Assembly (NCBI GenBank): GCA_000310025.1
Contig: FN649747.1
Coordinates: 2,133,183-2,197,182, forward strand
Reading direction: 5' to 3'
Source: Ectocarpus siliculosus
Taxonomy: Eukaryota > Sar > Phaeophyceae > Ectocarpales > Ectocarpaceae
DNA length: 64,000 nt
Made by a program: the position numbers and the translations under genes. Shown here piece by piece: positions 15,539 through 61,322 of the stretch. The notes beneath the pieces were generated by a model. That model saw nothing but the letters and a program-made list of their open reading frames with translations. It ran no database searches and had not been told where the DNA came from. The stretch's first letter is position 1. Each line of letters starts with the position of its first letter.

Positions 15539-15726
15539 ATGGAGATGATACCGCACGATGATCATACGGTCCAGTTTTTGGGCAAAGCAATCCGTGCGCC
15601 GGGCGCCTCAAACGTCCGCTACCTGGGCGGACGGCTGAGGTACTACGGCGGCGTGGTGCTGGGGGAGGCAGGGCAGCCCTCGTCCGGTGTCCAGACACCA
15701 ACATCAGCGGCTCCGTCGGCAGGACC

Positions 15727-15759
<33 letters not shown>

Positions 15760-18700
15760 GCAGCAGCAGTCACGAACAACTATTATCTCGCTGAACGACG
15801 TTGTGGAGGTTCGCGCAGCAAAGGATACCGCAGTCGGCCTTTCGCCCTTCCTGGCTCAGGTATGTAGGTTGTGCGTGGAAAATCTTTGGAGATCGAAACG
15901 TTCTGCCCTTTCATGCTGCTCTGAAGCGCTTCATGCTGCCGCAGGGCAGCAGCATGAAGTGGCACCACTCTCTTTGGTGTGCGTTGTACACGCATGCAAC
16001 CGGGTGCCAACCGGTCGTGATTTTCGGACAGAACGGGCGTGATGATGATTCTGCAATTTTTTTTGGCGCCTGTCATCATTGAGTCTTTCGTCGGACTGGC
16101 ATGCCACCGTATGTACATCCTTGATCTAACAACAGAGTGTTCGTGCGTGGAGGCTATCGTTCATCGACTCTCTCTCCTTGCTCTCTCCTTACTCTCTCTC
16201 TCTCTCTCTCTGTCCTTCTCTCCGCAAGAAAGTGTTCGTGCGGGTGTAATTTCCGCCTGCGTGTGGGGAAGTGCGATAAAGTTCCCCTCCTCCTCTCTGT
16301 GTGTCATTTCTTGTCAGACCGTTTCTTGATACCGCTGCTGTACAACAGCCTCGAGCAGACAGCGAAGATTCGAAGGCAGTTAGTTTTAGGGCGCCCGAGC
16401 TTCGGCAGTCGGTTGTGCCTGTGACCTGCACGCACGCTATTTCGCTGTTTGTCGATGGTGACCGCCTGCTTTACCCCCACCGAAGCGAGAGACAGACAGA
16501 CAGATGGAAGGGAACGGGTTTTTTGGGCTCTGAACAGCCGAACGGTTGAACTTTTCCAAACTGCGTGTGGTCGATACAGATTATTAGTCTCGTTAGACCA
16601 CTGGGTGCCTGATAACTTTCCGTCGCGCATAAAAAGCCCGCTTCTTCTCTCGCTACTGCAGTGAAATTGCGCAGTGGAATCCAGCCCTTTCCCCCATGCT
16701 TGGTTTGTCCAGATCCTCTACCCGTGCCCATGTAGTCACTGTTCGCCTACTGTTGAGTATTCTGGTGCACCGACCTGCTCCAATCGGCTGAACCTTTTAC
16801 AACTGCTGCTGCGCGCACGATGCATGTGTAAGTTCAAGTGTAGACCAGACAAACTTCAGCGGGTGAATGTGGTGGTCTCCCTCCCGCAGACAGCACAGCT
16901 GGCAGCAGCGTCCTACCGTCGTACCCTGTCTTGACATTGAATAACATGCGCAGTTTTGCGGGTACCACTCTCAGAAGTACAAAAACAGGAGTACTTTTCC
17001 CTCTGGTCATCATGCCGGTTTTGTGTGGGGAGATTGTTTTAGGTGCTCCTTCCTTTCCAATTGGATTCTGCCGGCCTGAGAACCCAGGGTAAGTCGGAAC
17101 GAGAGGGTAAATATCTCTGGCACCGGTGATTTATCTAAGATATAAGACAATCGCACTTCCTTCGGTGCGCAGAAGTTTTGTCTCCCCCCCAACCCTTTCC
17201 CTCATGATCAACGTATGCGTAAACCGGTACATTGCATATAGATTTCGAGAGCTTTTGTCGGAATCACAAGGATGGATAGAGACGGATACTCCGTGTTATT
17301 CTTGAGTACGAAAAATAATAAAATAATTGAAAAAAAATAATTGAGCCGTGTTGGGACTCCACAGCAACGCACCTACACTGCTGCTGTCACGAGCGCGTTT
17401 GTGTGTGCCGCTAATTTTGTCATGTAGCCGAATGAATGGATACAACAGAGAGCGCTGATCGCGGTACATACATACATACCACTGCGGTTGTTTCACACAC
17501 GGGGCGCCGTAGGACAACAAACTTTCATGTCCACAGACATTATTTTTCAGCAGCAGCTCCGGACAAAAAATCTTCTGTTTACAGAGCAGCCTCTCATTCG
17601 GCGTGATTTCCTGTGCCAGGCCTTTACAGCAGTACACAATTTGTTTAAACACTGGGCAGTATGAACACCAGCATGTGACGCCACTTCTGTACAATATCTG
17701 ATCTTCTTTACGCGTGGCTGCCGTTGGCTCCACACGTGGCCTAGGCCCGCAATCATCGATTTCCGCACCTCTCCACACCTCCACTGCGACTCCTGTTGTT
17801 CGGTTGTGTTACTTTCAGCGATGACGTATATTGTAATGGTATTGCAACGCTACAAAACTGCTGCCATAACGTCTGCGCGCGGGCACGACCGTCGCGCACA
17901 AGCCACAAACATTCTTGCCCGCCACCAGTGCAATTTCAGCGCCTCTTCGAAAACAACGCCGCCGCGCACATGCCTGATGAGCCTTTCCGCACACGCCCCC
18001 CTACCCCTACCCCCGCCGTCTCCGTCATCAGGTGGAGGCGTTTTGGGAAGACTCGTTCACGGGGATAGCGTACTGCCGTGCCCGGTGGCTCTTGCGCGCT
18101 TCGGAGATCCCGCGAGAAGACGTGTCCGAGGACGAGGTCCTGCTGACCACTGTCACGGACAACATCGAAGCGGCGCACATCCTGATGCTCGCCCCGGTGG
18201 CGGTGGCCTCCTCGCCTCACGCCGAAGCCAAGCGGGAGCCTGAAGCGAAGCCAGAGCCTTCCGCGGGCACTCGCCAGGGCCTGCGGCCCAAGCCTCGCAG
18301 CCCCAGGCTGGGCAAGGTGTTGCGCGGCAAGCGCGACAGGGAGGAGGAGGCCACCGCCACCTTACGCCTCGCCCGCGCGTACGACCCGTTTTCCGCCGAG
18401 GCTTCGGTCCTGCCGACTGATCACCCCGTGGTGGTGCAACTCCGTGCGCGGGAGCGGGCCGGGGGCAGCGGCAGGCTGAAGGCGGGGGGTTGCCTGAGCG
18501 ATGCGCACGGTTGTTCGCGCAAGAGTGGCTGTGGCAGGGCTGGGGCCCAGCGTAAGGGCCTTGACGGTGCGAGGCTGGTGGTTGCTGCTCCTCCGACGCG
18601 GGCGTTTGGCGCACGGAGAAGCGGCGGTGTGACCACCACCACCATCAGCGGTGGCGGTGGAGGCGGTTTCAGCAGCAGCAGCAGCAGCGTTAGCGTGAGC

Positions 18701-21700
18701 GTGGGTGGCGACAGCGAGAGCAGCAACTGCAGCAGCGAAGGCGGGTTCACGAGCGAAGACAGCCAAGACGACGTTCTCGACGCAGACGACGACGACGACA
18801 TTGTATCCGCCAGCTACCCGAGGACACGCCGAGGACGCCGCCGTCAAGCAACGGCGGCGGCGGCGGCGGCGGCGGCGGGGGAAGCCTTGATCAAGGCGGA
18901 AGAACCGACTGCGGCGACGAAACCGGGCGCACCCGAGGCAGCGTCGGACACGTCGTCATTGGACCGGACAGCAAAGCGCCCGGCTCGGCCCCGGCGTCTA
19001 GCCATGCCCCCTGCCGACTCCGCGACTGGCCTAGGCGGCGGGGGCGGCGCCAGAGTCGAGGAGGCCGGGGGGAGGAAGTGCCAGCAGCAGCTGCGCAGCG
19101 GGCTCCTGATCCGAGCGGCCCACGCGGGAGAGGAGTCGGAGGATGGCCTGGACTCGCCGAAACTGGAACAGTACCCGCAGAAGGAGACGAACGTCGGGGA
19201 AGACCACCAGGCGGACATCCCCAGCATGCTGCTGACGGAGGCCGAGCGCGCGGCGGACAAGGCGGCGATGGAGGAGACCGCGGAGATGGGAGGGACGGCC
19301 GTGAGTTTTGTGCACGAGTTTTTTTTTTTTGTGTGTCCGCGCCGACCAAGTAAATACGCACCAGTGATATTTTGGAAGGGAACAGATTGTGTGATTCCAA
19401 GAAAATGCGTCACCCCCCCTCTCCCGTCACACACACCCCTCCCGTCGCACCCCTTCCTCCCGTCACCTACCCTCCCGTCAGTCACCCCCAATCGAGGCAG
19501 TCCAACCCAACCCAATGCAACCGCCGCCACGCGTTTGCCGCCTCCCCTCAGGTGTGGAGCAGCGTGAGGGATTGGACGGCGAGCGAGAGGGAGCGCCTGG
19601 ACGGGTACCTCGAGGAGGCCAGGCGTGCCGCGGACGAGAAGAGGATGTCGCCGGGTGTGCCGGCGCTGATCAGCATCAACAACGGGGGCGACAGGCGGCG
19701 GAAGCGCAAGATGGCGTGGGCGGTCATGGCCGGAGGGAAGCCCGAGGACGAGGAGAAGCTGCGCGTCGGCTGCGCGGGGGGCGGTGTCTCGGAGGTGTCG
19801 CGGAGGGAGCTCCAGCCCACCCAGGTGTGCGTTTGGCATTTTTCCAGAGACAGGCCTGCTGCTTTGTAGAGAAAAGGGGAAAACAATATCGCTGTCTTGG
19901 TGTAATCCCGAGGGAGCTTGGACGGCATTGATCAACCTCTTTTCAATGCGCGATGGTGATCGGCCTGTTTCTAGTGTGGGGGTTCAGGCACTGCTGTCAG
20001 CGACAGATGCGGGGTTGGTGCGCAACAATCGGGGCAGGTTGTTGCAAAGCAGTGGTGTATCGGACACCGCGCAAAAGCTGAAAGGTCCAGCGACCCTTCT
20101 TCGTCGCAGGCACGCGGGCTAGCATCGTAAACGTCTTTTCATGTGACTGGACTCCGACATTATCAAAACGTGACCCGCGGTCGGAGGAACGCTCAGCGAA
20201 AGGCACGTGCCACCCCAAGGGTAGAGGGCTATTTTAGATGCGCGGTGCAAGCAGGCGAGGGTCTCTTCCGTTGGACCGTTACCAGAACTCTTAAGCGCGT
20301 GTGTTTGTTGCGTTCACGCTTGCATAAGTTAGTGCGCGCGTGCTACCGAGTAGTGCCTGCACACGATGTGTTTTCTTCTTTCGCGATGGCGTCAACGCTT
20401 ATTGGTGTGCCCGGCTTCTGCAGCCTTTTTTGCTGCATTGGTTGTGCTTCTGGACTTGAATCTGAGCTGCATGCGATAGCACCTTCTAGATTTGAGGTTA
20501 TAGATTACCTTCTGCATGCGATAGCACCTTCAAGCTTTGAGGTTGTATATTGCCTTCTTTGATTTTTTCCTCGTCTCGATTACTTTTTTTCGCACCCCGA
20601 TGTGTGTGCTCTCGGGCAGGTTGAGGAGCTGGCCATGCAGGCCCTTATGCAGGAGGATGCAGGCAACAAGAAAGGAAAGGGCAGCCTCATGGACAACACG
20701 CGCACCGCCCTCGGCCTTCTCGACAACACCATGGTCGACGACTCGGGCCCCCTGGCCACCTGGACGGGACCGCAGGTATTGTGATTGCTGTCGCCCTCCA
20801 GATTGGAAACAGATAGACAAGAGCAGCTCACAGAATCACCACGCTGGCGCCGCTGAGTTGCTTGAGCCAAACAGGGATGGGCATCATTTGTGTGATAGTA
20901 CTATTGGCATGCTGCTGGCGTTGTCAAGGGGTCTGGTATCACGTAGCAGCTGTCCATTCCTTTTGTTTTGCGGTTTGTTCACCCCCCCCCTCCCCCCCCC
21001 CGACCTCCGGTGCGATTTTTCTGCTGTTGCAGATCGAAGCCCTCTCGAAAGCTCTGGAGACTCACTTTGATGCAGACCGCTTTACTCGTTCGAGAGGGCA
21101 CGAGCGACATCGCGACGAACACACCGACGTCACCTCTTTGATCGCTTCTGTCGACGGAAAGACGCCGTCACAGGTAGGACAAGAGAGGAAGAGCAGAGAG
21201 AGAGAGAGGGAGAGAGAGAGAGAGAGAGAGCAGACAAGGCGCGTTTGCTGCAGACGGCTCACAGAGACTTGAACGCTTTCGAAAATGCGGGGAATATTGT
21301 TGGTTCGAAAGGTCCACCAGAGCCCGAGCGTTCCGCTCTCAGAGCCAAGAGACCCCTCCGGCAGGGACACAGATCACACATCAGCGGAACCAGAACGAAC
21401 ATTTCCCTTCCGTGTGTGCACCGTCGCGATGCGTGCCGCTACCTCTTCCTGTTCCCCCGTCGCCCTCCACCGCAGGTTCTGTCGTTCTACTACCGGTACA
21501 TGGCCACCGGAGACGCGCTGACGGAAGTCATGGGAAGCGCTGAGGTGTGTGCGCGTGCGTGAGGGAAACAAGAGTGTGTTTCGCGCGCCTCCAGATGAAT
21601 GTGTGTCCTACATGGCAGACAAACGAAATATCCGCAGTTTGTGCAACCATGATGTTTCTGTCGATGCCCTCTTTTTTTTCTGCTTCGTGCTTCGTGCTTC

Positions 21701-22213
21701 GTTTCGACCAGGGCGAGCACCAACACCCCCCTTGGTTTCTTCCCCGGCAGTGAAGCGTGATTTCTTTCCTGCTGTCGCACAGGCGTTGATTCGGCACCCT
21801 TGTTTCCTCAATTATCGAGGCATGTCATGAACAGGTCGTACTTTGCTCTGCGTGTCCTTTACACGGCGATGTTTGCCGAGGAAAAAAAACACCCCCAACC
21901 TTTCCTCCGCCACACACGCCCCCCCCCCCCTCCCGTTCCCCCAACAACAATAAATCCATCTATCGTCCGTCTTGCGCGCCTCCTGCAGGCGCAAGCCAAG
22001 GTTCGTTCGGAGAGGAGGTCCGCGAGCCTCCGCGGCCCGCCCGCCCCGCGCCCGAGCCCGCCTCCCAACCTCCGGCACCGCCCGTCGCTGCGGTGCCCCA
22101 CCCGCCTCCAGGCGTCGTCGTTCGAAGACTCGGGCGACAGCGACGACGGCGACATAGCCGTCGGCTCGTACCAGCTCCGGACGCGGAGGTCGAGCAGGAA
22201 CGACAGGCGCGGA

Positions 22214-22247
<34 letters not shown>

Positions 22248-25200
22248 CAGCAGCGGCGACAGCGGCGACAGCGGCGGCGACGGGGAGCGCCGGCAGCAAG
22301 GGGAGCGCCGGCAAGGCCGTTAGCAGCAGCAGCACCAACAGCACCAACAGCACCAGCAGCAGCAGAGGCAGAGTCAACAACAACAGCGATGATGGCGGCG
22401 GCGACGGCGTTGGAAGCAGCAGGAGCAGAGGGAGCAACAACAACAACAGCAGCAGCGACGACAGCGGCGGCGGCGGCAGCGGCGGCAGCGGGCCAGTCAC
22501 GCGGCAGCCTGCGGACCACCGGCGCACGTCCGCGCCGGAGGAGGAGGAGGAGGAGGAGGACGGAACCGCCTCCTCTCGAGGCCGGGTCGGGAGCAGGCCG
22601 CCGGCGGGATGGGCCCAGGGCGGCCGGGGGGGGGTGGCAGCGGCAGCGGCGGAGGCGTTCGGAGGGGGCGAAGAAGGGAGGGGGTGCAAGAGGTCTTTCG
22701 ACGACCACCGGGCTCCGCCGGGCGACGCTAGGGGGGGGGCGAAGGAGCAGCGGGTGCCGCAGCGGCCGCGTTGGCAGCAGGAGGTCCCTCGGCAGTCGAT
22801 CCCTGCGGACGCTGTCGTAGTGGAGGTGAGGCGCTGTTTTTCGGCGGCAGCCTCGAGAAGACGTTTCTCACGCAACCAATGATTTGACGACTTGAGGGAG
22901 AGGTAGTGCGGCAGCCGTGAAAGGTGCCCCCAAGCGGTAGAGGTGCATCACCAGGCGAAGGTGGCGCCTGTTGTTGTTGCGTGTGCGTATCGGGCTGTTC
23001 GATCCCCCCATGCTTGCATTAGAGTCGGTTTGGAGTCGGCAACAGGGCTGCGTGTCCCGTCTGGATTTAGTGGTGCTCTCTCGTTAATGTTATTGTTCGG
23101 CAGTAGCGACGCAATGTTACCACTGCCGGAGATAGAGGCTCGCCGGTCAATGTCATGGACTCTTGACGTCGAAACCGTCATGTTCGTTTCAATCCACCCT
23201 CCCTGAAAAATGGCCCATCTACTACGATCGCAACAGCTGTGCAGCAGATCGTTGGCGAGTCCTTCCATGCTGAGGAGCCGGTAGCCACAACGCTTACGTA
23301 CTTCGATTCAAGTCATTGGCCGTTCCAGTCTTCTCCCAATCTATCCCTCTGAGCTTTCTCGCCAACTCGATGGTTTCGTGCTGATTCTGTGTGGCACGCG
23401 GTGATCTGAATGTCAGGTGTCAGATGATGAAGAGCCGGCAGCAGCAGCACTAAAGTTAGCATTAGCAGCAGCAGCAGCCTCAACCACAACATCAGCTGCA
23501 GCTGCAGTATCAGCAGCAGACACCAACGTTAGCATCTCAAACGGACGGGGCATGAACGAGGCTCGTGGTCCAGCATTTGTCGGGGGATCGACGGCAGACG
23601 TAATGGCCGGCCAGCGTCGCCACGGACACACGGGCTACCCCCACGGTACGGGTAGCATGGACGGTTGTAGGCCAGTGTGTTGGATGGAAACTAAGGCCGT
23701 GTGCATGCAACGCGTTGAACGACCCGCCCCCACCCCCAGGTATGTATGTGGGTGTTTCTTTTATTCGCAGCCGACCAAGGAACTACTGTGAAATGCACTA
23801 TATGAGAATGTAGTATTGATCTTTGTCAAGGTTTGTGCGTCCCACTCGCGGGTGAGCCCCCCGGTCCGGTGGTGCACAATAGCAGTGTGCCGATGTTCAT
23901 TTCTAATTGGTTCGGCTCATTTGCTGGCGCCGCTCTGGCCCAACCTCCCTAAAGACCGGTTGTGCATTGACTGGTGCCACTTTCTCACCGTCGCCTCTGA
24001 TGTTTGCGTTGTTCATGGTGATGCGCTCTCCAACGTGGGTTGGTGCTAACGCAATCCGACGCGGAAACAGGAGGTGGTGCTTCTACCTTCGCCAGACGTG
24101 TAGACGAGCGCCGCAAGGACAGCCGTGTCTTGGCCGACCAGCGACAGCACCACCACGACCGCCGCTACAGCGACTACCCTTACGACGGCTACACCACCAC
24201 CACCGCCACCACTACCACCACCGCCAGCAACAACAACAACAACAACAACAACAACAGCAGCAACCTCCACCATCGCCGCTATTACCACCACACCACCAAT
24301 AACAACAACGGTTTCGAAGGCAACCAGCACCACCAACGCAACAGTGGGTACAACTTCGGGTACGGTTACGGCAGCAGTAGCAGTAACAACAGCAACAACC
24401 TCGGTGGGAGGGAGCCCCGCTTTCAGTCAGCAGACCGACACTCTCGGCACTTGGCCGCAGCCTCGTCGGGCGTAAGGGCTTCGGAGATGCGTGCTCCCGC
24501 TGCCCTTGGGAGAAACGTTGGCGCTTCGATGCGGGGTCCACCACAGCAGCCGGGACCAGCCTTGGGCGGAAGTTGGAGAAACGGCGGCGGAGGGGGCAGG
24601 GGGGTTGTGAGTGGGGTAGGCGTGGGGGGGAGGCCAGGAGGCTCGACGCCCGCGTTCCGGCGACGCACAGAGGAGTTGACGCCGATGGAGAAATGCTGGA
24701 TGCTCGTGGACTTCGCGCGGAAGGATGGCTTGCCGACGGTGCGTGCACCTTGCGGCGTTGTTGATTTGATGGTGCCTTGTCGTCGTCATCGCTGTTGTTG
24801 CTGGACTGGCGTCTGCTCTTGGAAAAGCGGGTGCGCGGATGCTTATGTCCGCGGCCCTACCGAGGCAAAAAATCCAGTGTACTCTCGTTGCAATATAGGG
24901 GATTGATGCGCTCCCTAAAGTTACTCGTTGTTCGAGTCCATACGTGGTCAGCAGAGCCCAGATATATTTACCGTAATATACGATAGTGGTTCCAGCATTT
25001 TGCTCAATGATTTTGTGGAGTCGTTTGGGGAGGGTACGCCTGGCGCCTTTCTAGCTGGAAACTCACCCCATTTACAGGCCTCGCTTCTGTAGCTCCCCCC
25101 CCCACACGGATCCCTGGTCTTTTGTGTCGATGCCTCGACAAACTTACGAGCAAAGGAGCACGTCGCTCTTGGAATGCTACGCTACCGTCACACCCCTTGT

Positions 25201-44936: not shown

Positions 44937-46032
44937 AAAAACACAAAACAAACGTGTCTAAAATTTGCTATCTTTGCCGTGTCTTGTGCGTGCTACTCGC
45001 GGCGGGGGGCGCCTAGGGTTGCCGTCACGCCAACCACCTACATGTAGTTAGTTCGGTTCGTGGCATGATTAGGTGTCCGCCTACAGAACAAAGCCACTTC
45101 CTTCCCATTCCAGAGGGTATGTGTCCCTTAAAACCCTAGCACTCACGCTCGAACAGCGTAGTCCGGACCTTCCGTACCACGCCGCTCTGCTCCTTCTTCA
45201 CCATCGCGTGTGCTGGGTACACTCTTGATGTATGATCGTGTTGGCACCAGCTGGACGTCTTGCATCTCATTTGGCAGTTACTACAAAACTATATTTAACG
45301 TGCAGGAAATAAACGCTCGGTCTCGCCCGCGGTTCTCCACAGCACACAAACATGCGAAGTAGCAGCCCTGGTAGACATGTGTGCAATGTCCTTCTGTTGT
45401 TACCGTCTCCGTCTTCAATCCGGAGAGTAGAGTAGCCTCCCCCATTTCGCCCTTCTCACGGGGTCCCAGATGATGTAGCCTTTAGAAGTATTTTGTGTTG
45501 TCAACCGCACTGAGTCTGACGTTTTTTCATTGGTCAGGCGGTTAGCGCGGTCGCGGTCGATGCATATAAAAGGAACACAACCACTAAACACAAAACACAA
45601 ATCTGATGTTAAGGGCCACCTAGTTCGGTCGCTCAAATACACGGACCCATTAGCTTAGAAGAAAGTTCCTTCGACCGCACATTGGACGTGCGCATGAAAA
45701 TGAAATCACCAGCACGCATACCTTGTGCGTACGATGACAACACACGCATGAACAAAAAAGCTGACGCCCCTACTTCCGCGCATACTTCGGTAGCAGACGG
45801 AATAGAAGCACGCTACTATACGCAGGATCTAGTCGTAAAACAGACGTAGTGAAAATTCTATGTACTCAAATAATGAAATAACGAATACGTGGTCGATCAT
45901 CATGAATCAACAAGGACGATGCGCAGAACCTTAAAAGATGGAAGAAAATAACCTTTCGCTTGGAGACACCATAAAAACGAAAATTGGGGTGAAGTGAAAC
46001 GGCGCCAAGCATTTGTTTCGATGCTTCCTATT
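44937..46032. other. Spacer between the convergent genes B and C
   Basis: No gene is recognised. AC- and CT-rich non-coding sequence. It should hold the 3' end of gene C, which reads in from the right. Confidence 0.45.
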
Positions 46033-49000: not shown

Positions 49001-52000
49001 CTACTGCCATACTTCCAGTTTCCCCCTTCATGTGCATGATACCCCATTGAAACCGCTGTGAGAGTGTGGGTGAAGCGACAAACGGTTGAAAAAGCAGAGA
49101 AAATTGGCAATTTGCCTGTTGGAGAGTGGAGAGCTGGGGGGAAGAAACGCTGTCGGTGGCTCTCCCACGCCCGGCCATCGACCAAATGCACTCGTGCTAC
49201 ATCCACACTTGCTGCCACAATCACGCGGCATCACGCGACGTGAAACCTCAGGGCAATGAGCCAGACGAAACGAACAATCTCACGTACCTCTAGCACCTCG
49301 ACGCCCGGGGGCATATCCCTCGGCGTCCGCCTCATTTGCTCCCTGGCGGCTGCCCGCTGACGCTCGTATTCACCACCAACGTTACCATTGGCACCGGCAG
49401 GACCGTGGCTTCGCGGGGCGTGGTCCACGGCAGGAGACACGGTGCTACGCATCGGGGGAGAAACCGTGTGCTTCGGTGGCCTCACATCTTCCCGCTCCCT
49501 TAAGCGGCCCTTGGCTTCAGAGGCAGGAAGCAGAGGGACTGCGTGAGTGCTTGACTTGCGGTCAGCCGGGGGATCGTATGTCGCGGCGCTTACGCTGTCG
49601 CTGGAAGGGTTGGCCAAGCTCATGTGCTTGGCGGCCGGCCTGAATGTTGAGTTGTTCGACTCTCGGGCAGGGCGCCCAGGGCTGCCAGTAGGGAGGATGG
49701 CTTCGCGTTTTCGTGCTTCAGCCGCCTGCGTGGAACCAGAGGCCATTGTTGACACATATAGCGTACAATGCAAACGGGCGTACATGTTACCGTGTGTTTC
49801 AGCCCTCGTGTGTTTCTCCGACGATATTTCAAAGGCTCTACCACGAGGGGTCCAATTACCGCACATGGTACACAGGAGAAACTGCTCTCTATAGACCAGG
49901 GGTACGTGAAGGCCTGTCCGTCTATAACATCCGTCTACAACGGATGTCGAACCTCCGGCAACAAGCCTTCCTACCGGCGGGAAACGATCTCCCTGCAGCC
50001 GACAAACAAAATAAGTGTTCGGCCTAGAGCAGGATGTGTGTTTTGTGTTCGTCTTATTTATTAAGGCGACAGTCGCCCAATTTTTCGAGGTGAGACGTAC
50101 TATACTTTTCAGTGTATGTAAAGCACTACAATTTTCAGTTAATTTTTTTACAACAACCACAGGAGGGGGAGCACCAGGGCTTTTGTCTTCATATTTTTCG
50201 TGCCCCACCTTCCTCCTGCTGTGCGTGCTGAATTTTTATTTTTATCGCGAGAGGGGTCCAGCCGTCCCTCTCCCTCGTCAACGGTGCTACCGTCGATGTT
50301 TGGTACTCGCGAGCGCTTTTTCAGCTGAACCTCGCTTTTCACCAGAAAATTTTGTAATTTTTCACCCCATGCGGATTCGAACTCACGACGTTTGCGACTA
50401 GTGGGATACCACTAGTCCACCGGGGCGACCGGGTATAAGTATGCGTTTAAGAAAAAAACGGTTTTGGTCATGAGTTGAACAAGATGTCCATTGTGGGTTA
50501 TCCACTGTTGGGTGCTCACCTCCTCCCCGTAGACAACGTCCGTAAGGGGCTCCGCCGTCGCAAGGTATCTGTAGAAGAAACAAAGCACCTGTGCACGGAG
50601 AACAGGTGACGGGACAGTCCACGCAGAAGGGGTGCCGCGACAATCAGAAGCGGCCCGTCGTTAGTTGTGCCGAGGCGATCGTTTGTATCTCGAGCGTCTG
50701 GAATTAAAATGATATGTTCATCTGCGTTTATGTGGGCCTTCATGAACAGATCGAGCTACGGATGGGCCCGTTCCATTGAGACGTATGATTGTGCCCTGAA
50801 AGGAAGCATGCATACCTGCGTCGGGCTTTTGCCAGAGACCTGCTTGCTGACGTCGGCAAGGTCGATGAAATCCTCGCGGTCCATGTCCATCCCTTCTCGA
50901 GCCCACCCGTGCAGCCGCCTGTCCCGGTTGTAATCCTTTGCGAGGGCTTGCTCCAGTGTTCTCACCTTCCGGCACATCACATGGGGGGGGCACGCATGAG
51001 ATACGAAAAGACATCTGCTCGGCTGTCCGTACAGCTATTCGCCGTATGCAAGAATTTCAGGCACAAGGACAAATGACGCTTGCGCCTCGAACGATTGTGG
51101 CATGCATACCAAGTGGCACAACGACGTTGCCCCTTCTTTACAACGCCAAAGCGACGGTGGTAGATAGCAAGGGGGCGGTGGGTTTCCCTCCATACCTGTT
51201 GGAGGGTCCAAGGTTGAATGCTCTCCGGCGATGCCTCGTCGCCTACGAGAATTTTTAGGGCCGGGTCGAAGTCGTCCAGGGTGCACCTGGCCTTGACCAA
51301 GGCAGCCAGGGCCTCTTCCTCACACTGGCGAAGGAGGGACAACGCCGAAAGCCGAAATGAACCCTGTGTCAGTACAACCATTTCCTCTCTATTGTTTGTC
51401 CAGGCACTGCCGCAATCGCTTCTAATGATGTTACCTGCATCCACGCGGCGTGTGTTTTTCCTATTGCTGACACAGGTTCCGTAATATCCAATCATCTCGT
51501 GGCGGTTCTACGTCGCACAACGGGTCAGAAATGTTCATGACAAAACACTCTCATGTGTGGCTGGGTGAGCATCTTGTGAAGCTCAACCATCAATCGCTCA
51601 CCTGCACCCGTTGAATGGCAGACATGGGGACCTCCGTCTGGGCCATTTCCGAGCAGCCGACTCGCGCAACGCCGCGGGCGTTGCTGCCTGCGTTGCGGCC
51701 GGCGGTGACCGCCCAGACAGCGTAGCTGCTGGCAACGCTGGACTTGTCTCCCGGGGTCCCGCCCTTGTCACCCTCGCCGCCGAGGCGCACGTGGATGGCC
51801 ACGCCTGGGCGAGACTGTTTCGCCTGGACCGCCTTCTTCGCTGCCTCGAGGTACGAGGACAGCATTCCGCGGGAGTGTGGATCCCAGTCACGAATGCTTC
51901 GCCAGACCTGCCCACCAGCCAACCAGAGTTAGGTTCGAGGTGTTTTCAACAAGGGACAACACCCAGCGAGCATAGAGAGGTCTATCCGTCGGGAAATGAT

Positions 52001-55000
52001 TATCCGGGATCTGGAAGAAGGCAAAATCCAGCAGCGGGTTGAGGTAATCGTCGTCTTGCTTTGTAGCTCTTATGGGACGGAACTTCATAGAAACAACGAT
52101 GAAGCACTATTTCACTGAAACATCTGAGGAGCAACAGCAGTGGGGGCAGTGGAAGTGATAGTTTACCCGGTTACACAAAGAATACATAGAAAGAAGCACA
52201 AGAAAGTGAAATACCACGGGTTCTTGCAAGCAAGCCTCCGGGGAGAACGAGGCACTCGAGATGCTACTCACCATCTTGGCGCCGGTCCCCGCGGCGGTAG
52301 GCGCAGCGGCCTGCCTTTCGCCTGCTGGTAGCAGGTCCGGAATATCAGCCTGGTAGCCGTCGCCGACAAGAGTACGTTGGGGAGGGTAGTCGGATTCCTC
52401 CACGGCGGTCTTAGCCGGTCGGCCCCTCTTTCTCTTCCCCGCAATTGACAGTCGGCGCTTTACTGATGAGGCGGGGCCTTCCTCAGAACCCGGCGGCGAT
52501 GGCGTCGCCCCGGGAGGAGTCCCTTCTGCCGCTCCCGCGGAAGCGGTGCGCACGCGATTGGGGCGGCGGTCCTTGCCAGTGACCCCGGAGTCGGCAGCAG
52601 TGGGAGGTAGGGATTGATCGGTATTTTCTGAATCCAGGCGAGCCGACAACGAAGGATTGCCTTCGACGGGAGGCATGGCCAGGCGACGCGGTCGCTTCGC
52701 ATGAGTTGTGCTGCGAGGCGACAGACGCGAGTTTAGGGTAGGCGGCGTACCAGAAACAGGGGAGGAAGAAGAGCCGGAAGCGCGTCTCTTGACCCCCTTC
52801 CCGTCATCGTCATCATCATCATCATTCGCCAGGAGCGGCTTCTTACGTCGAGCCGATTTCCTGGGCGGCGCGCCGAAGGGTTGTTGGTCCTTGCCTGTTG
52901 AGTCGCTGTCGTTGTCGTCGTCGTCGTCGTCACCGCTCTCTTCGTCCTCTTGTTTCCACTCCATGTCGTCAGACTTAGCAGGGTGGTCGGGACCGCTGTC
53001 ACTGCCACTCTCGCTCCACTCTCCTTCCGATTCAGTGTCGCGCACAGATGCAGCAGCGGCAGCAGCAACATCGCCGCCGGTCCTGCTGGTCCCGGCATCA
53101 GAAACCGTCCTCGTTGACACTCTTGTTCTTCGGTTCGGCAGCAACCAACCGTTGCTGCTCTGCGTCACGGACTTGCCGCTCCTGGCGGCAGCGGTTCCTT
53201 CGACCAGCCTTGACGCGCGCGTGGAGGTTTCCGCGTGCCTGGCTCTCGCACGCTTTACAATGGCATCAGTGGGCTCCACGGGGATGAAGTCGCCCGACGA
53301 AGCATCGAAGGCGTGGGTAAGGCGCGGCCCCATGTTTTGTTTCGGCTCGGTGGCGCGTTCGGCGGCTGTAGTCGCCACTGACAGCGTAATGGGCTTGGCG
53401 ATTGCACGAACGTCGAGATCCTCCCTTTTTGTAGTGAGGAATACTTCGTTTTTCATCTCCATTTCCTCGCGCGACTCGTTGGTGCTGTCGGGTTCCTCTT
53501 CACCTGCGAAAGCACGACGAGCCGCCTGGAGCCGGGCGAAGGCATCTTCAGGGAGATCTGACGAGTGCACCAGCCAACGCGCGTGGAACTTGAATAGGCC
53601 CGTAAAGGTGTCTTCCCACATGGAGAGCACCTGCGTGGTCGAATTGAAAGCACATGACCAAACAAGCCAGGTCAACCAAACAGTGCGCGAAATCATTAGT
53701 CATGCAGTGGAGGCAATAAACACCAGGGACGCGTTGATCGCCAGGTAGAGTTAGACAAAGATTGCGAGGTCCCAAAATGTCGATCGACAGCTGTTGTCGT
53801 TGTTCGACCGACCCCCTCCTTTGATGTCCGGCCTGTTGCGGCAAACAGTGCTGTTCGCTCATCGCAAGTGCGGCGGTCTGTAAACAATGGCTCCATTGCA
53901 TTGCGGGCCAATGCCTCAAGCACCGGCCTGCCGTACATGACTCGCATTGGGCGTGGTGTCGTCATACAGCACTTGTTGAAGGGAAAGACAACACTATAGA
54001 CACCAACAATAAAATGACATTGTCCCATTCGATGTCTAAAGCCGTCCCCGACACCGCCCCTACGCAAACCCTCGCTTTCAGGAAACATTTTGCGCGTCAG
54101 AACCAGGGGCATTGCAAAAAATATCACTCACGGTTGGGGATACATGGCATAATCTGTGGTTCCGGTGGCGCACATCTATCGCCATTGGATACGGAGATTC
54201 ATGCGCCTGGCACACGTCCGAGGGAAAGAAGTGCTGCTGCATCTGCTAGCGTGGGATGTGGATAGATAAATCTTCCTTTTGTATGTTGGTGCGTCACACA
54301 TCCATGTGGCACACGTTCTTTTCCGCTCGAGGCCTACTCTCGGTTTCGGAACGTTTGTTCAAGCTACATAAATAGGATAGCTTGCGTCGCACATCAGTGG
54401 CTGGACGTGTGGGGAAAATTGGTATCGTCGAAAACCCCTCTGGCTCAGTGAATCTCTCCACAGAGCAGGCAATTCTTCGCAATGTGTATCGGCAGAAAAA
54501 GGGTGTAGCAGACCATCGCTGCGGCCATTGTGTGAGACGTACCGTGATGGTTGGGCTTGGGTTGGGTATTTGTAGAGATAGGGTATTGCAGACGATCACT
54601 TTAGTCATTGTGTTAGATGTATCATGGTTGGGCTTACATTGTTTGCAAGTCACCATGCACCAGACAATACTTGTGGGTACCTGGTGACTTGTAGCACTAG
54701 AACTGTCGCCGTGGAAGCGTGCAGTTTCCAGCACAAGGTCGAAAGCCTCACAACAGCGGCAACTTGACTGCACCCACTTTTGTTTTGTTTTCGACCGCAA
54801 CCATGTGAGTCTTTACAGCGGGGGCAGGGCAGGAGACAAGAAAGTTAACTTCGGGTCGAAGCTTAAAGCTCCCATGTGAACAACCAACCCATCTACATCG
54901 TTTATCGTTCAAAATCTAACTGCAGTTGTATCAGATCCATGTTTATGGTTTCCAAATCTTTATCTTCATTTCTTTGGACAAATGCTGACTTTTTCGACCT

Positions 55001-58000
55001 TTTGGGCAGTCTGCCTCCCGAATGAATGCGAATCAGCTGTTCGACCTTTGAGAATAGTCACAGCTTTGCCCGAGATGTATTCAGGCCGCATACTTGTTTT
55101 GCCAGGGTCCACGTTTGATTTTTTTCCAGCAGTTCAAGATGTGCAAGATTCGGCCCAAAGACCACCTCGGAGCAAATGTTGGGCCAAGATCTGTCCAAAA
55201 GCTGGTGTTGGAAAAATCTTGCGTGAAAATTGTGCATCTTGAAAAAATCAAACGTGGGCCCTGGCGAAACAAATAGGCGATCTGTAGACATCTCAGCCAA
55301 AGCTGTGACTATTCTCAAAGGTCGAACAGCTGATTCGCATTCGTTCGGGAGGCAGACTGCCCAAAAGGTCGAAAAAGCCAACACTTGTCCAAAGAAAGGA
55401 AGATAAAGATTTGGAAACCATAAACATGGGCCTCATACAAGCTCGTGTTCTTCGGTCATACTGGATGCGGCCGATTTTACGAGAAATATTTCCCTATTGT
55501 CCTACACTGCGTCGTTCACAAACGATGTATTCGGTTGTAAAGATCATTGAGCAGCCAATCATGTGCAATTCGCTGGTACACGCATGCTCGGGTGGTGAGG
55601 ACGGGTGCAGGAATGGGCACGTTTGCTTCTTGTTCGACACGCTCCCACTGCTACACATGGCTTTTGTCGTGGGAGCCTATGACTATTGTCGTTTTTCTTA
55701 GCTAGGGTTCTTAGCGTGTCGCCCAAGAATTGTCCGAGTTTCTTTTACCCCAAATGGTTCATTTTCGCGACAGCTGGGATCTTTCTGTATCCTTTCGGTT
55801 TGTTATTGTGCCTGTGATGGTTGGTTGTTCTGGGTGCCTTTTATTTCCGTTGGTAAATTCTGCTGCTCCGGAGTACATACGCTGAGTGTATGCATACGTA
55901 GAAGTATGTGCCGTTTTTCGGGTAGTTGGCCTGTGACCACGGAAAGCATCCGTGTCAGTTGGACCGGCACGGATATTGGAAGGTATGAGCCAAGACTGGC
56001 AAGGTTCATAATGTCAAGATAACATCAACAGCAACAAACAACAACAACGACAACAACGAACGGTGTTTCTACAAGCAGCACCACCACCAACGCCGGTAAC
56101 CAAATCTTCGCTCCAAAAAGACACGTAATTCTATTTAGTAATAGTAGACGATGCTCTATCGCAATGGAATTCCGGACAAGCTCGCTTTATAGTTTTCTCT
56201 ATTTACTTCATTTCTCTTTTTCTTAGGCTATAGAAATTTTTGTCCTATGTTTTTACCGCATTAACAAGCACACTTCGTAATTATTCCTGTAGATATAGTA
56301 CCAATAAAAGGATTCGCGTCAGGTCGGCGCGAGCTTTTTTTTCAACGATTTTCTGGATTTTTTTTGTTGCAAGCCCGCAGCCGCGCCGATCGATGCGAAT
56401 ATATGTGCATGCATGCCGACCTCCCGACGTCGGCCCCGGCGGTCTGCACGGACATGTGTGCACTGCTCTGCATCTCTGCTGACACCGCCACGAGCTTTTT
56501 CATCGATGCTCTAAAGAGATCCTTCTGGAGGATTTTGGCTGTAAAAAGAAGTAATTTCTGGATTTTTGGGGTTGAAAGCCCGCAGCCGATCGGATGGATG
56601 TGAATACATGTGCATGTGCCGGCGTGCCGGCCTCCTGACCTCGCTCGGCGGTCTGCACGGACAGGTGTGCACACTGCTCTGCATCTCTGCTGCCACTGCC
56701 ACGACATATGCATTGCTCGACTGCTGCTGGAAACTACATACTTGGGGCTGACTCTGTGTGTATAATAGTTCATTGAGCAGTCGGACTCAATCCTGGCCTC
56801 ATCAACAAGGACGGATTGATTGAGCGGGGTCATCAAGCCGCCGTGTTCTTCTGTTTTTCTGCACGCACACACACAGTGCAACCGCCGGAACAGTGCTTCG
56901 ATGTACGACAGGCGACGGGCCGACCGCCAGCTCAAGATGCGGTTACTCCAGGCTGAAGTGGTGGAGACTCTCCTATACGGGTGCGCCTCGCGGAGCCTAA
57001 CAGCGGAGCACTACACGAAGCTCAATGGGACCCACCGCCAGTTCCTGACACGGTGTATCGGCTGGAGCAAGCGGAAACGCTCATAGCCCCCTGTCCTATG
57101 CCCAGGCCCTCATCCAGGCCGGCTGCGAGGAAACCATCGAGGCCACCGTGTGCAAACGGAGACTGTGTTTCGCGGGCTTCGTTATGCGCATGGAGGCCAA
57201 CCGCCTCCCCAAGCGCATGTTGGTAGGAGCGATGGCGGGGGGCGTGGGATACCGGGGCGGGCAGGAGAGCGACTGGGTGTCTCGTCTAGGAGAGGACCTC
57301 GTGGCGTTCAACATGGGAGACGAAAAGGAAGGGGGGAAATGGAAAGAGAGCGCCAAGGACCCGGAGGCGTGGTACAACAAGGTCGAGGACGGGGCGGCAT
57401 GGTTCATGAGGAAATGGCACAGACAGGAGGCGGAAGCGTCCGCGAAGCGCCAGCGCGCGAAGGAAGTAGAAGCAGGGAGTACGGCCATCTCGGGACCGAA
57501 GAGAAAGAGAGTCGGGGAGGCGGCGGTGGGGGGGAAGAAACGGCAACCGGGCGCTGTTGCTGTAGAAGCGAGTAGGGCGGCCGAGGCAGCACTTGTGGCG
57601 AAATATGTACCCGGCTGATGTTGTTGCGCCCTGTTCCCCTCCCTGCTTTATGTTATACTCGTGTATGTCCTTTGTATTGCCTTCGGCCTCAGTGCTGTGC
57701 TTCTTTTTTCATGTCCTCCCTGCCTACTCTGCCTTGTTGGGTACCTTGATCTCCCTTTTGCTGTTGCTTTTGCTTTATATTCTGGCTGTCTGCCCATCTG
57801 CCGCCTCTTTTCTGTTGCCTCCATTACTTCTATGCCCTGGTGCGTAGTGCCTGATGCTGGTACGGTACCCTTTGATTGTTTTTAGGCGGGTGTGGGAAGC
57901 GTCCTCGTTTTTCCCTTTTTTTGTTTGCCTTTATTTTTGTTTGGTTTTATGTTGATCGGTTTCCTAGGGCTCCTTTTCTCGACCGGTTGGTGCGGTAGCT

Positions 58001-61000
58001 GTTCTTTTCTTGGCATCATTTTGTTTTCTTTTTCAGAGTGGTTTGTACTCTATTCTTGTTTTGTTTCCCCGCGGCGTCGTATGTGCCGGGTTTTGCGACC
58101 ACGGGCTCCCCATTATTGTGGACTATAGAGCTACTGTGAGAGAAACAACAACAAAAAACAACAACACACACCCTCGAAAGGGCAACGAAGAACAAACCAT
58201 GTATACATGTGCGCTTCCAGCGTGCGAACAGTATCAGGTAGTGACCGTAGCATCGTCATGTCTTAAGAATCCGGTGGGGATTAGGCGAGATGAGACAGAC
58301 AGCAGTCCAAACATCTCCCCCGCATGACACATATGACAGAAGGCAGCCAGACCTGAACAACAGCAAACAAAAAGGAAAACGAGCTGAAATTGCGTCGGTT
58401 TGTACCGCCTTGCTGCATGTACGCTGGGAACGCTACTGCTGTTGTGTTCTCATTCCCCACACGTACACGCTCGCTCCACATCCGCTCTGGCAGCTGCCGT
58501 GCCAACGCTCCGCTGGTGTTGTTGGCAGGTGTTGACACAGGGTTCAACATCAGACAGATCAGAAACAGCTTGTCACGCACGTTTTTGGTTGAAGCTGACG
58601 ACTTCTGCCGGGCTGTTCGACACGACAGCCCGACTCTACCCGACAGCTGACGCTACAGATGGACAGAATCAGTGCGTGGTCTTCTTACAGTCACAGGAAA
58701 ACTCTGGAGACTGCGAGGAAGACTGTACAAATCTGTATATAGTCTTATTCTCGCGCAGGTGTACACGTGTACTCGTGTACACCCCCGGTGCTTTGGGCGC
58801 GCCGTGTATGCATGGTGATAATGCGAAAACGTTCATTTATATAGCAAAAATCAACGATATCAGTAGAAAAATCAGGGACGAACATTACCCCCGTTCCGGT
58901 AATTTACCGGTGAAGGGTTGGCGGGGTCGGTGAAGTCAAAAATTGAGGTAATTCTCGTCGCCTTCCCTACCCATCAGCTGCAGCTTTCCACACTCGCGCT
59001 TTGGCATTTTCGTGGCCCATAGATACTTTTTTCTGTATTTTTTTTGTCAATTCTTCGGGGAAGAGATGCGGAGACTACTGTATGTACGGGAACGAACATG
59101 ACAAAACATTTTGAAAAACAGTCAGCCTTCATCTTGCCCTTGTTTTGTTTTCTATTCTATGCATATTACTGTCAAGATGTGGGGCTGTAGAGGAGAGGGG
59201 TCAGCCACACGAGCTACATGCACCCTGCCACCCTGCTCACCCGCCCAAACCAACTGACGTGTTTAGGGGCACAGCTGATGTTGTCATACATCTTTGCAAA
59301 AATGAAGTGTACTTCGAAGTATTCGACACCAAAGTATTTTTTTTATTGTATTTGTGAATGCCACCTCAGACTGTCGTAGATTGTGACGTCTCATATATTC
59401 AATGTTTACTGTTTTCTCAGACCGCACCCACTCTCTCGGACACACTTATAAGAAGGTGCACGCCAACAATTAGGGGGTCACAGCATCGAAGCACCGCTAC
59501 TGTTGCTGTTTGGGGTCGTGTGCCAACGCTCCGAGCAGCACACAACAAAAATGAACGAAACGAATGGAAATCCCGGGGACAGTCGTTTTTCATCCCCGTT
59601 TTTTGGGGTGGTATTTACCAATATGTAGGTAAAGCCGATGGCTGGTTCGCGGAAATTACCCGTCGATGAAGGGGTCCTTGGAAAAAATGAAAAATCGCCC
59701 GTTCGAGATAATAGATATCCCGTTCGAACTTTTGGAATTGTTGTCACTGGCGGACGCGGGCCGCAGTGCACTTAAGAGACACGATCGAGACGACAGCGGA
59801 TAGAAGATCTGGCTTCCTTCACCCTTGATTGTACTAATAGTATCGAACTAGCCTAAATAGTCTCCTCCGTCAGGTGCGATGCTTGTTGTCAAGACAGCCA
59901 CAGGTAGGTCGACTGGCCCGAACGTAACGTGTTAAATATATTGTATACATCCCGTTCGACTGTGGGTATATCTCGAATGGGTAGTCTTTCTGTGTGTGTT
60001 TTTATTATTCCTTAATACCTACAGGTACAGGTAGCATTCATCAGAGGCATTTTGCAATGTTTTTGTACTTAGCACCAGCTGGCATCACTGGTATAAATCA
60101 TCAGTGTATAGACTTAAAAAGACTCGAAATAAGTCCAGTACCCAGCCGGTTTCCCTCCACTCACTGAAAAGACTCCACCACATCCCGTTCGACTGTGGGT
60201 ATATCTCGAATGGGTAGTCTTTCTGTGTGTAGTCTTTCTGTGTGTGTTTTTATTGTTCCTTAATATTTCGGGAGACGATTTCAGATAAAGAGTCGATTCC
60301 GAGATATTCCAATAAATTTACGAGATTCCACCAGATTCAACAACGGAGAAACTGAAATTCATGACGTGAGGAGGAGGTGAGGTCGGCACGGGAATTATCA
60401 AGGTGTTTGTGGGTAGCGCCCGCGGCGAGAAAGGGCAGTAAGCCTGATACAGACGAGACACAGCAGCAGTAGTCTCTCGCGGAATCGACATATCGTGTGC
60501 ACCAATGTACACTCGAGAGTTATGTTCTAACGAGCTGCCCGTCCCAAAGCCAAATAAACCTCGTCCGGAGACCGGGGGGATCTATCTGCAAAAAAAGAAG
60601 ACAGACATAGCCCTTCTGCGTGCCGACGTACGCTCTGCGAAGGGGGCACTCTGCTGTTTGTTGGTGTTGATGACTCAGACACGGCAAGCAATACAACCCT
60701 ACCTATCTTTAGTGATGGCTCATGCCGCGTCGATTTGCATGCCGGGTCGATTTTGCATGCTTTCTCCGAACACGCATTGCATTTTATTCTCCTCTCTACT
60801 CTTGCTGCTGTTGGTGCCCCGATCCCAAGAGCCATCGAGAGAGCGGACGGAGACTTTTTCGGGTTCAACGATCACGCCAATATGGAGGGGGAGACAAGCT
60901 GGTGGGGCGTGCAATTTGAACACAGCAGAGGCGAGCGGGATAAGAGGAGAAGGCCCTGCAGCAGCAGTCACGAGCTCTCTTGGGATGGCCAGCTCGGTTC

Positions 61001-61322
61001 TCGAAAGAGAGGGAGAGAAAGCGCATATTTTTGTACCGCCAGCTCCGCAGCACCAACACCCCCCACCGCCTACATGTATGTTGGTACTAATATACTGACT
61101 CTCCACACAGACCTGAGCTAGGCGCGGTTGTGACGGTGAACCTCCGCTGCCAATCTCGATTTTGACGGTATCGGCGATCTCCACGACGTCATTGACGTTG
61201 ACTTGCTCTCCGGTGTCCCCCAGCTCAACGGCTCCGTAGTGCCTCTGCCTGCTGATTGGAGGTAGCCCACTGCTGTCCGTCGTTGGGGTATCGATCGATG
61301 ACCCGACCCATCGGGTATTCAT
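46033..61322 (-). CDS. BAH-ELM2-SANT chromatin protein, paralogue C, 1318 aa, 12 exons
   Basis: Minus-strand exons: 61322-61113, 53630-52272, 51907-51602, 51324-51196, 50965-50816, 50588-50520, 49725-49288, 48942-48714, 48508-48210, 47915-47850, 47489-47428, 46672-46033; all phases join as in A and B. BAH over exons 1-2 (about 28-155; HYGAVELGD, VNVNDVVEIAD, VLSMWEDTFTG, FHARWLVHSSDL). ELM2 starts TLVGDGYQADIP (490-501); WRSIRDWD and EEEALAALVK follow in exons 3-4. SANT-like exons 5-6 (669-741) include DREDFIDLADVSKQV and end in CFFYRYLAT. The C-terminal module reads GFMGPCWSLLERAQAYLD, DQLVYMRGLIL, LLERAESCL, FDRVDLI. A Gln run lies in exon 9. Acidic stretches in exon 2 (DDDDD types) sit between BAH and ELM2. 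It faces gene B tail to tail and has the longest first intron of the three (7.5 kb). Function inferred as for A and B. Confidence 0.88.
46770..46819 (+). repeat. 23-bp tandem duplication in gene C intron 11
   Basis: Two adjacent copies of TTTCTTGGATGCGCCGGGTG plus three bases. They lie just upstream (in gene C orientation) of exon 12. Confidence 0.75.
46939..47327. mobile_element. Inverted-repeat element with a B-box-like sequence in gene C intron 11
   Basis: Both ends begin ATTAGACT-like and share an inverted segment (AGTCTAA..TTGATTTCGGCTTCTA on the left, its near-complement at about 47259-47291 on the right). Near the right end the minus strand reads GGTCGTCGGTTCGAGACCC, a B-box type sequence. 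It could be a MITE or a SINE with inverted ends. The extra ATTAGACTAGTC copy at the left edge blurs the boundary. Confidence 0.45.
48091..48127 (+). repeat. (GA)n microsatellite in gene C intron 9
   Basis: An imperfect GA run about 80 bp beyond the donor of exon 9 of gene C (minus-strand orientation). Confidence 0.7.
48370..48400 (-). repeat. CAG/CAA repeat coding for poly-Gln in gene C exon 9
   Basis: Nine consecutive Gln codons, both CAG and CAA, lie just before HPYHIRREVGDD in the segment leading to the conserved C-terminal module. The Gln tract of paralogue A is elsewhere (in the BAH domain), so the two arose separately. Confidence 0.8.
50050..50433 (-). mobile_element. tRNA-derived SINE, family 1, copy 2 in gene C intron 6
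   Basis: A minus-strand copy of the element at 44543-44936. It has head CGCCCCGGTGGACTAGTGG, B-box GTGAGTTCGAATCCGC, core GAGGGAGAGGGACGGCTGG, and 3' hairpin GGGCGACTGTCGCC followed by TTAATAAAT. The tRNA-like part could be mistaken for a tRNA gene, but the anticodon and acceptor parts do not fold as one. It lies in the same orientation as gene C. Confidence 0.75.
54502..54640. repeat. Two diverged direct repeats, about 83 bp apart
   Basis: A unit of about 55 bp (GCAGACCATCGCTGCGGCCA..ATGGTTGGGCTT) recurs diverged 83 bp later (GCAGACGATCACTTTAGTCA..ATGGTTGGGCTT). Non-coding, in intron 1 of gene C. Confidence 0.6.
54926..55440. mobile_element. 515-bp near-complete palindrome (foldback element)
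   Basis: The left arm (54926 to about 55140) and right arm (about 55225-55440) are inverted copies over nearly their whole length. They start TTGTAT..CCATGTTTATGG, continue through CGACCTTTTGGGCAGTCTGC, and end at a CCACGTTTGATTTTTT block, leaving a loop of only about 85 bp. Both arms therefore translate to the same short meaningless frame. Arms of over 200 bp with no gene point to a foldback-type non-autonomous transposon. No target duplication could be fixed. It lies in intron 1 of gene C. Confidence 0.8.
56350..56702. repeat. Two direct repeats of about 150 bp, period 205 bp
   Basis: The unit runs from TTTCTGGATTTTT through AAGCCCGCAGCCG and GGCGGTCTGCACGGACA to CTGCATCTCTGCTG. The second copy starts about 205 bp after the first. 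Copies differ by small insertions. They lie just upstream of the LINE fragment. Confidence 0.7.
56844..58170 (+). mobile_element. 5'-truncated LINE (non-LTR retrotransposon) 3' end
   Basis: The first open part (to 57086) encodes the end of a reverse transcriptase: RLLQAEVVETLLYGCASRSL, then THRQFLTRCIGWSKRKRS. A frame change between about 57080 and 57091 leads into a second open part ending at 57618, with a basic/acidic C-terminal tail (WVSRLGEDLV, WYNKVEDGAAWFMRKWHRQ). This wording is typical of the C-terminus of LINE reverse transcriptases. A non-coding T-rich stretch follows, ending in a (CAA)n-type tail near 58138-58170. It is 5'-truncated, frameshifted and inactive, and is inserted in intron 1 of gene C in the opposite orientation. 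Confidence 0.75.
59948..60267. repeat. Two direct repeats of about 70-87 bp
   Basis: CATCCCGTTCGACTGTGGGT and about 50 further bases occur at 59948-60017 and again at 60181-60267. The second copy has an internal repeat of AGTCTTTCTGTGTGT. Non-coding, in intron 1 of gene C. Confidence 0.75.

Follow-up and report, generated by a model that had tools for sequence, protein, structure and literature searches.

The question raised by this locus is what a brown alga does with a local family of proteins in which a BAH domain precedes an ELM2 and a SANT domain. Three such genes, designated A, B and C, lie at positions 15539-61322 of the stretch of Ectocarpus siliculosus DNA analysed here (the window, 64,000 nucleotides; contig FN649747.1, C22:2133183-2197182 in an assembly of 492 contigs totalling 189 Mb). 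The original prediction, made from the letters of this DNA, described a local expansion of three BAH-ELM2-SANT genes with 12 exons each, laid out like the animal MTA and RERE co-repressors, and raised a possible specialisation by life stage or sex. The presence of three genes with 12 exons each in this interval was borne out by open exon chains, ELM2 matches and mutual homology. The local expansion was likewise supported but proved larger than claimed: the count of three is correct for the window and incomplete for the genome, which contains at least five such genes (A to E) in two clusters. It is reasonably probable that the five encode divergent scaffolds, which would recruit a class I histone deacetylase (HDAC) through the ELM2-SANT module and be tethered to chromatin by the N-terminal BAH domain. 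The genes are as follows.

Gene A: 15539..26915, plus strand, 12 exons, 1560 amino acids; the most divergent paralogue.
Gene B: 31382..43940, plus strand, 12 exons, 1237 amino acids.
Gene C: 46033..61322, minus strand, 12 exons, 1318 amino acids; convergent with B and closest to D and E.
Gene D: contig C34, ATG at 298271, end of exon 11 at 308928, plus strand.
Gene E: contig C34, ATG at 341894, end of exon 11 at 328651, minus strand.

The triplet was confirmed on the basis of splice signals and mutual homology, by which A, B and C could each be chained into 12 exons without an internal stop. The edges of the interval are exact, the left being the ATG of A (15539) and the right the ATG of C on the minus strand (61322). 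B and C are convergent, their ends being separated by 2092 bases. The introns are of the GT-AG type in 32 of 33 cases, the exception being intron 3 of B (GC-AG). When all open reading frames of the window were compared with one another, the E values between B and C were 6e-46 for exon 2 and 4e-35 for exon 3, and the best matches of A were 3e-7 to B and 3e-10 to C; the exons of the three genes are therefore homologous rather than coincidentally alike. Chance resemblance was rejected, since the exon matches are far below chance level and the splice positions are common to five genes. The exons are listed below.

A exon 1: 15539..15859, plus strand, start of BAH.
A exon 2: 18032..19300, plus strand, remaining BAH, linker, ELM2 start.
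A exon 3: 19552..19824, plus strand, ELM2 with invariant VW, then family-specific extension.
A exon 4: 20620..20775, plus strand, ELM2 end, SANT start.
A exon 5: 21033..21173, plus strand, SANT.
A exon 6: 21476..21544, plus strand, SANT helix 3.
A exon 7: 21989..22825, plus strand, low-complexity linker.
A exon 8: 23417..23739, plus strand, best donor in phase 2, with a weaker one in phase 1 after 23645.
A exon 9: 24096..24738, plus strand, linker and first C-terminal helix; start unsure.
A exon 10: 25248..25313, plus strand, C-terminal block.
A exon 11: 25688..25749, plus strand, C-terminal block; phase 2 after.
A exon 12: 26393..26915, plus strand, block end, low-complexity tail, stop.
B exon 1: 31382..31567, plus strand, start of BAH.
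B exon 2: 36016..37377, plus strand, BAH, linker, ELM2 start.
B exon 3: 38118..38441, plus strand, ELM2; then the GC-AG intron.
B exon 4: 38725..38853, plus strand, ELM2 end, SANT start.
B exon 5: 39065..39214, plus strand, SANT.
B exon 6: 39497..39565, plus strand, SANT helix 3.
B exon 7: 40520..40906, plus strand, linker.
B exon 8: 41564..41705, plus strand, linker; phase 1 after.
B exon 9: 42077..42276, plus strand, first C-terminal helix.
B exon 10: 42565..42630, plus strand.
B exon 11: 42955..43016, plus strand; phase 2 after.
B exon 12: 43304..43940, plus strand, stop.
C exon 1: 61113..61322, minus strand, start of BAH.
C exon 2: 52272..53630, minus strand, BAH, linker, ELM2 start.
C exon 3: 51602..51907, minus strand, ELM2.
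C exon 4: 51196..51324, minus strand, two ALxxL motifs at the ELM2 end, SANT start.
C exon 5: 50816..50965, minus strand, SANT.
C exon 6: 50520..50588, minus strand, SANT helix 3.
C exon 7: 49288..49725, minus strand, linker.
C exon 8: 48714..48942, minus strand, linker; phase 1 after.
C exon 9: 48210..48508, minus strand, first C-terminal helix; weak acceptor, alternative phase-1 start at 48481.
C exon 10: 47850..47915, minus strand.
C exon 11: 47428..47489, minus strand; phase 2 after.
C exon 12: 46033..46672, minus strand, stop.

Among the three predicted domains, profile searches found ELM2, found BAH below its cut-off and detected SANT at sub-threshold level only; the order BAH-ELM2-SANT is supported, BAH and SANT by weaker evidence than ELM2. 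The identity of ELM2 is considered secure on these matches. In the window genes, the Pfam model (PF01448) matched A (30.1 bits, 9.3e-7) and C (29.0 bits, 2e-6) above the cut-off of 21.7 bits and B slightly below it (19.3 bits), and with the ELM2 core segments all five paralogues were matched (best 3.5e-8). Two ELM2 tryptophans (W36 and W42 in alignment A6) are invariant in the five proteins, and W36 lines up with the VW of MIDEAS. Exon 4 encodes pairs of ALxxL motifs, namely ALAAL/ALKIL in C, ALEAL/ALKML in B and ALAAL/ALKVL in D; the pair is ALAAL/ALNVF in E, in which only the first motif is exact, and AMQAL/ALGLL in A, in which only the second is.

The BAH assignment is supported by the family alignment, with the invariant columns NDVVE, WED..TG, AR.L and EV.LT, and by matches that stay under the curated cut-off. 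The Pfam BAH model gave E values of 2.4e-5 for C, 0.021 for B and 0.14 for A, all below cut-off; with BAH cores (PF01426), three of the five paralogues were matched, the best being C (28.7 bits against the curated cut-off of 30.8, E 1.3e-6). The same model searched against the genome gave no match, the window's own genes included, because the domain is split by an intron and weak in this family.

For the ELM2-SANT region, a profile of the five paralogues was searched against PDB, with matches accepted up to E 10 in this and the other family profile searches. Five sequences were returned, all weak, two of which were MIDEAS (E 0.59 and 2.4), the sole ELM2-SANT protein among them. The MIDEAS alignment is in register at both ends of the module, with VG..QA.IP and VW at the start of ELM2 and KT.AQ...FYY.Y in SANT helix 3. 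A single-sequence PDB search with the module of C returned two weak matches, at E 0.012 and 0.059; each was to the bacterial protein Rv1546, and we regard them as chance.

Downstream of SANT and the linker, exons 9-12 encode a conserved, helical-looking C-terminal block that is common to the family. Its motifs in B and C are FGFM.PCW.LLERAQAY, DQL.YM.GLI and LL.R..SCL.EQ, A being more divergent. None of the three spliced pieces (A, B and C) containing the block was matched by Pfam; exon 9 of C alone gave a weak DOG1 match (E 0.11, 13.2 bits against a cut-off of 27), and no match above a Pfam cut-off came from the linker exons 7-9 or exon 12 of A.

The genome search with the Pfam ELM2 model returned six matches, corresponding to the three window genes, two sites on contig C34 and one on contig C28. 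The two C34 matches were identified as the near-complete paralogues D and E by protein searches with parts of C and by exon-by-exon tblastn. Like B and C, they form an inverted convergent pair. In each, 11 of the 12 exons were seen, the start of exon 9 and the end of exon 12 not being fixed, and no convincing candidate was found for exon 8. No further A-like gene emerged from a genome search with parts of A; the family size of five is a lower bound, as such searches can miss weak matches. D and E were ruled out as alleles of the window genes, since they are only 61-62% identical to C in nucleotides over nine exons.

All five copies have open frames in these nine exons, which provide 777 to 935 codons for each pairwise comparison. 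Between D and E, dN was 0.126 and dS 0.304, which points to purifying selection, and every other pair had a dS of at least 1.4. The tree of the five copies, all from one genome and rooted at the midpoint for drawing only, was ((((D,E),C),B),A). The D+E node had support of 100/100 and the C+D+E node 93/96, which narrowly misses the support mark of the tool; A sits on a very long branch (3.41). On this tree, D and E appear to be derived from the C side, and their inversion would be an event of its own, separate from that of B and C.

What these proteins do has to be judged from their sequence, and on that footing the predicted co-repressor role is plausible. We infer that the ELM2-SANT module would recruit a class I HDAC, that the N-terminal BAH would tether this scaffold to chromatin, and that the scaffold would be nuclear, with repression as the outcome; its control would be altered, activation by inositol phosphate being weak or absent, and the C-terminal block would contact a partner. 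In animals, the ELM2-SANT module holds HDAC1/2 (PMC10325919, PMC4244562), as reported for MTA1, MIDEAS, RCOR1 and MIER1 (PMC10325919). MIER1 and MIER2 need one ELM2 tryptophan to recruit HDAC1/2, and ELM2 proteins have been described as carrying ALxxL motifs (PMC5207708); the algal family resembles MIER1-3 in both features, and in our own reading the first invariant tryptophan would be the HDAC-recruiting residue of the MIER proteins. In keeping with this reading, the genome contains 17 HDAC-family matches on seven contigs (all classes together).

Several results weigh against HDAC recruitment by a BAH-ELM2-SANT scaffold. The SANT/Myb model matched only two of the five paralogues, below threshold (best E 0.013). 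In the MIDEAS match at E 0.59 no single stretch passes alone, and a profile of exons 4-6 returned three PDB matches, two of them ISWI, again weak (E 0.41). The BAH profile returned a single weak match, a DNMT1 chain (7lmk, E 0.27), which presumably covers the BAH part of that protein. A partial structure model of BAH (the exon-2 part) was poor (pLDDT 63, pTM 0.38), and a fold search with it gave no match at E 0.001, the T7 portal protein coming first (E 0.049) and the Sir3 BAH second (E 0.48). The ELM2 stretch of C, at about 160 residues against 104 for MIER1 (PMC5207708), is some 55 residues longer. Finally, the inositol-phosphate contacts are altered. In SMRT these are Lys449, Tyr470, Tyr471, Lys474 and Lys475 (PMC7700698), and conservation of such residues has been stated for SMRT, MTA, RCOR1-3, MIER1-3 and RERE (PMC4244562). 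Although the algal SANT shares the helix 3 pattern of RCOR and SMRT, the lysine that ends this helix (in RCOR3 and, after FYYTY, in MIDEAS in our alignment; Lys474 in SMRT, PMC7700698) is Leu or Met in all five paralogues. The position of Lys475, which was located one residue beyond the end of the printed alignment, is Ala in all five; both tyrosine positions are Tyr in A and D and one of the two in B, C and E, the comparison covering these four of the five contacts. With a longer ELM2 and two lysines gone, the binding of an HDAC may have been altered or abolished. Proteins deprived of the lysines could nevertheless retain HDAC binding, since MIER complexes show a weak response or none to Ins(1,4,5,6)P4 (PMC5207708).

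These features lend some weight to an alternative that we regard as possible but unlikely, in which the five proteins derive from ELM2-SANT proteins but no longer hold an HDAC, and instead serve as scaffolds of the BAH type that bind chromatin or DNA and engage different partners through the changed ELM2, the altered SANT helix 3 and the C-terminal block. The replaced lysines and the longer ELM2 region would fit such a change, as would a C-terminal block devoid of Pfam matches above cut-off and an AT-hook match in C, itself below its cut-off (14.7 against 17.4 bits). Against it stands the retention of the ELM2 tryptophans and the ALxxL-type pattern in the face of the high dS of all pairs but D/E, which suggests that an HDAC-facing function is still selected.

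A further proposal, which builds on the HDAC-recruiting scaffold and which we consider rather doubtful, is that these genes represent an HDAC scaffold class of stramenopiles or brown algae, in which one chain unites a BAH reader with a widened ELM2 and with a SANT no longer under inositol-phosphate control. This class would have been amplified into two inverted clusters and would belong to the repression system that took the place of PRC2 and DNA methylation.

It is very unlikely that the five are ordinary MTA or RERE members, inherited from a deep eukaryotic ancestor and performing the same job as in animals. RERE has the domain order BAH-ELM2-SANT. MTA1-3 of the NuRD complex share that order (PMC4244562), and the likeness of the algal proteins to the predicted MTA/RERE layout is one of domain order. 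Membership of either family is contradicted by the replaced lysines and by the PDB profile matches up to E 10, which included no chain named MTA or RERE. The GATA zinc finger had no Pfam match in scans that jointly covered all exons of A, B and C, and the algal proteins further differ from MTA and RERE in their own C-terminal block and in the 387-431 residues between the start of exon 2 and ELM2. The resemblance to MIDEAS, a component of the MiDAC complex (PDB 6z2j, 9r4i), is limited to the two weak matches in register described above, and A-E differ from it in carrying BAH in the same chain and in their longer ELM2 region. Most improbable of all is that the family consists of one working gene plus decaying relics, as the long branch of A and its long low-complexity stretches might suggest, since A, B and C have open frames and splice signals for all 12 exons, D and E have nine open exons, and conservation in the paralogue comparison is better in the SANT and C-terminal exons than in linker exon 7.

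The presence of BAH in the candidate HDAC scaffold itself sets the family apart from MIER, which uses a separate BAH protein, BAHD1 (PMC10325919). The mark read by BAHD1 is H3K27me3, which the study of five brown algae in PMC13076208 reported to be absent from them. More broadly, brown algae are reported to be without PRC1, PRC2, H3K27 methylation and DNA methyltransferases, and H3K79 methylation has been proposed for their silencing (PMC7784034, PMC13076208). The reported absence of PRC2 and H3K27 methylation argues against a BAHD1-like reading of H3K27me3 by the algal BAH, a role that was rejected on this ground, and makes other repressors more interesting. For such a host, at least five candidate HDAC scaffolds with a chromatin-reader domain constitute a concrete gene list for silencing studies, and the loss of the lysines predicts a deacetylase complex that would be less tied to inositol-phosphate levels. 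The five-gene family was not described in the titles and abstracts of the literature searched, nor do the main texts of PMC13076208, PMC7784034 and PMC12592211 contain the terms BAH or ELM2.

In the chained genes, the exon borders were in phase 0 throughout, except for phase 1 after exon 8 (B and C) and phase 2 after exon 11 (A, B and C). As the phases given in the original prediction were known during chaining, the exon 8/9 borders were rescored with a matrix that held none of those borders. In B, phase 1 was clearly the best (donor 10.3, acceptor 8.0 bits). In C, the best donor was in phase 1 (7.2 bits) and the acceptor was weak (2.1 bits), with a second phase-1 acceptor of 3.9 bits located 27 bases on, which leaves the precise start of exon 9 in C uncertain. 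The border in A appears to fit phase 2 (donor 11.5, acceptors 5.5 to 7.2 bits) better than phase 1 (donor 4.8, best acceptor 7.3 bits). The top-scoring acceptors of exon 9 in D and E were in phase 1 (7.4 and 6.4 bits, respectively), and phase 1 after exon 8 is probably the ancestral state; this border sits in a fast-changing linker. The identity of phases claimed for the three genes therefore holds for 32 of the 33 borders and is in doubt at the exon 8/9 border of A, which scores better in phase 2.

Within exon 2 (aligned codons 180-500), only 15 of 167 four-fold sites differed between D and E, versus 65 of 249 elsewhere (Fisher p 1.2e-5, a value too small by some factor because this part was picked after the sliding profile had been viewed). 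Between C and D, the proportions were the same inside (47/85) and outside (103/185) this part of exon 2. Gene conversion between the inverted paralogues D and E is the probable explanation.

Two further observations concern sequences elsewhere in the genome. On contig C9, a repeat encloses a 370-base copy (C9:4231903-4232272; L013:3904-4273) of exon 1 of D together with the flank upstream of that exon, at 99% identity. The flanks of the copy recur just downstream without the exon (L013:3795-3903 = 4832-4940 and 4272-4805 = 4956-5488, both about 99% identical), as if the exon had been captured by a mobile or tandem element. The C28 match is a short ELM2-like stretch (C28:52150-52200; L012:5151-5201; canonical letters INVGPEYQAAIP), above the Pfam cut-off and in a frame of 76 residues. 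Patterns and tblastn applied to 20 kb of sequence here revealed no convincing SANT or further ELM2 exon; an algal SANT query gave one short match in this region (E 0.003), without the helix 3 pattern.

The window also contains repeats and a gap. An inverted repeat of about 74% identity is formed by 44544-44953, 3' of B, and 50036-50432, in intron 6 of C, and another (54926-55440, about 83% identity) lies in the large intron 1 of C. The region 12698-13326 includes 100 N (12960-13059), an assembly gap or a withheld stretch, whose flanks, when translated, share 40% identity across 87 residues. In the genome, a predicted protein was matched to fucoxanthin-chlorophyll proteins, the best being FCP17 of 9ygv (409 bits), which fits an ochrophyte host. 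The chlorophyll-binding family has 66 matches in the genome at E up to 1e-10, and arrays of such genes were observed on contigs C92, C232, C488 and C16, with ten equal-scoring matches on C92 alone.

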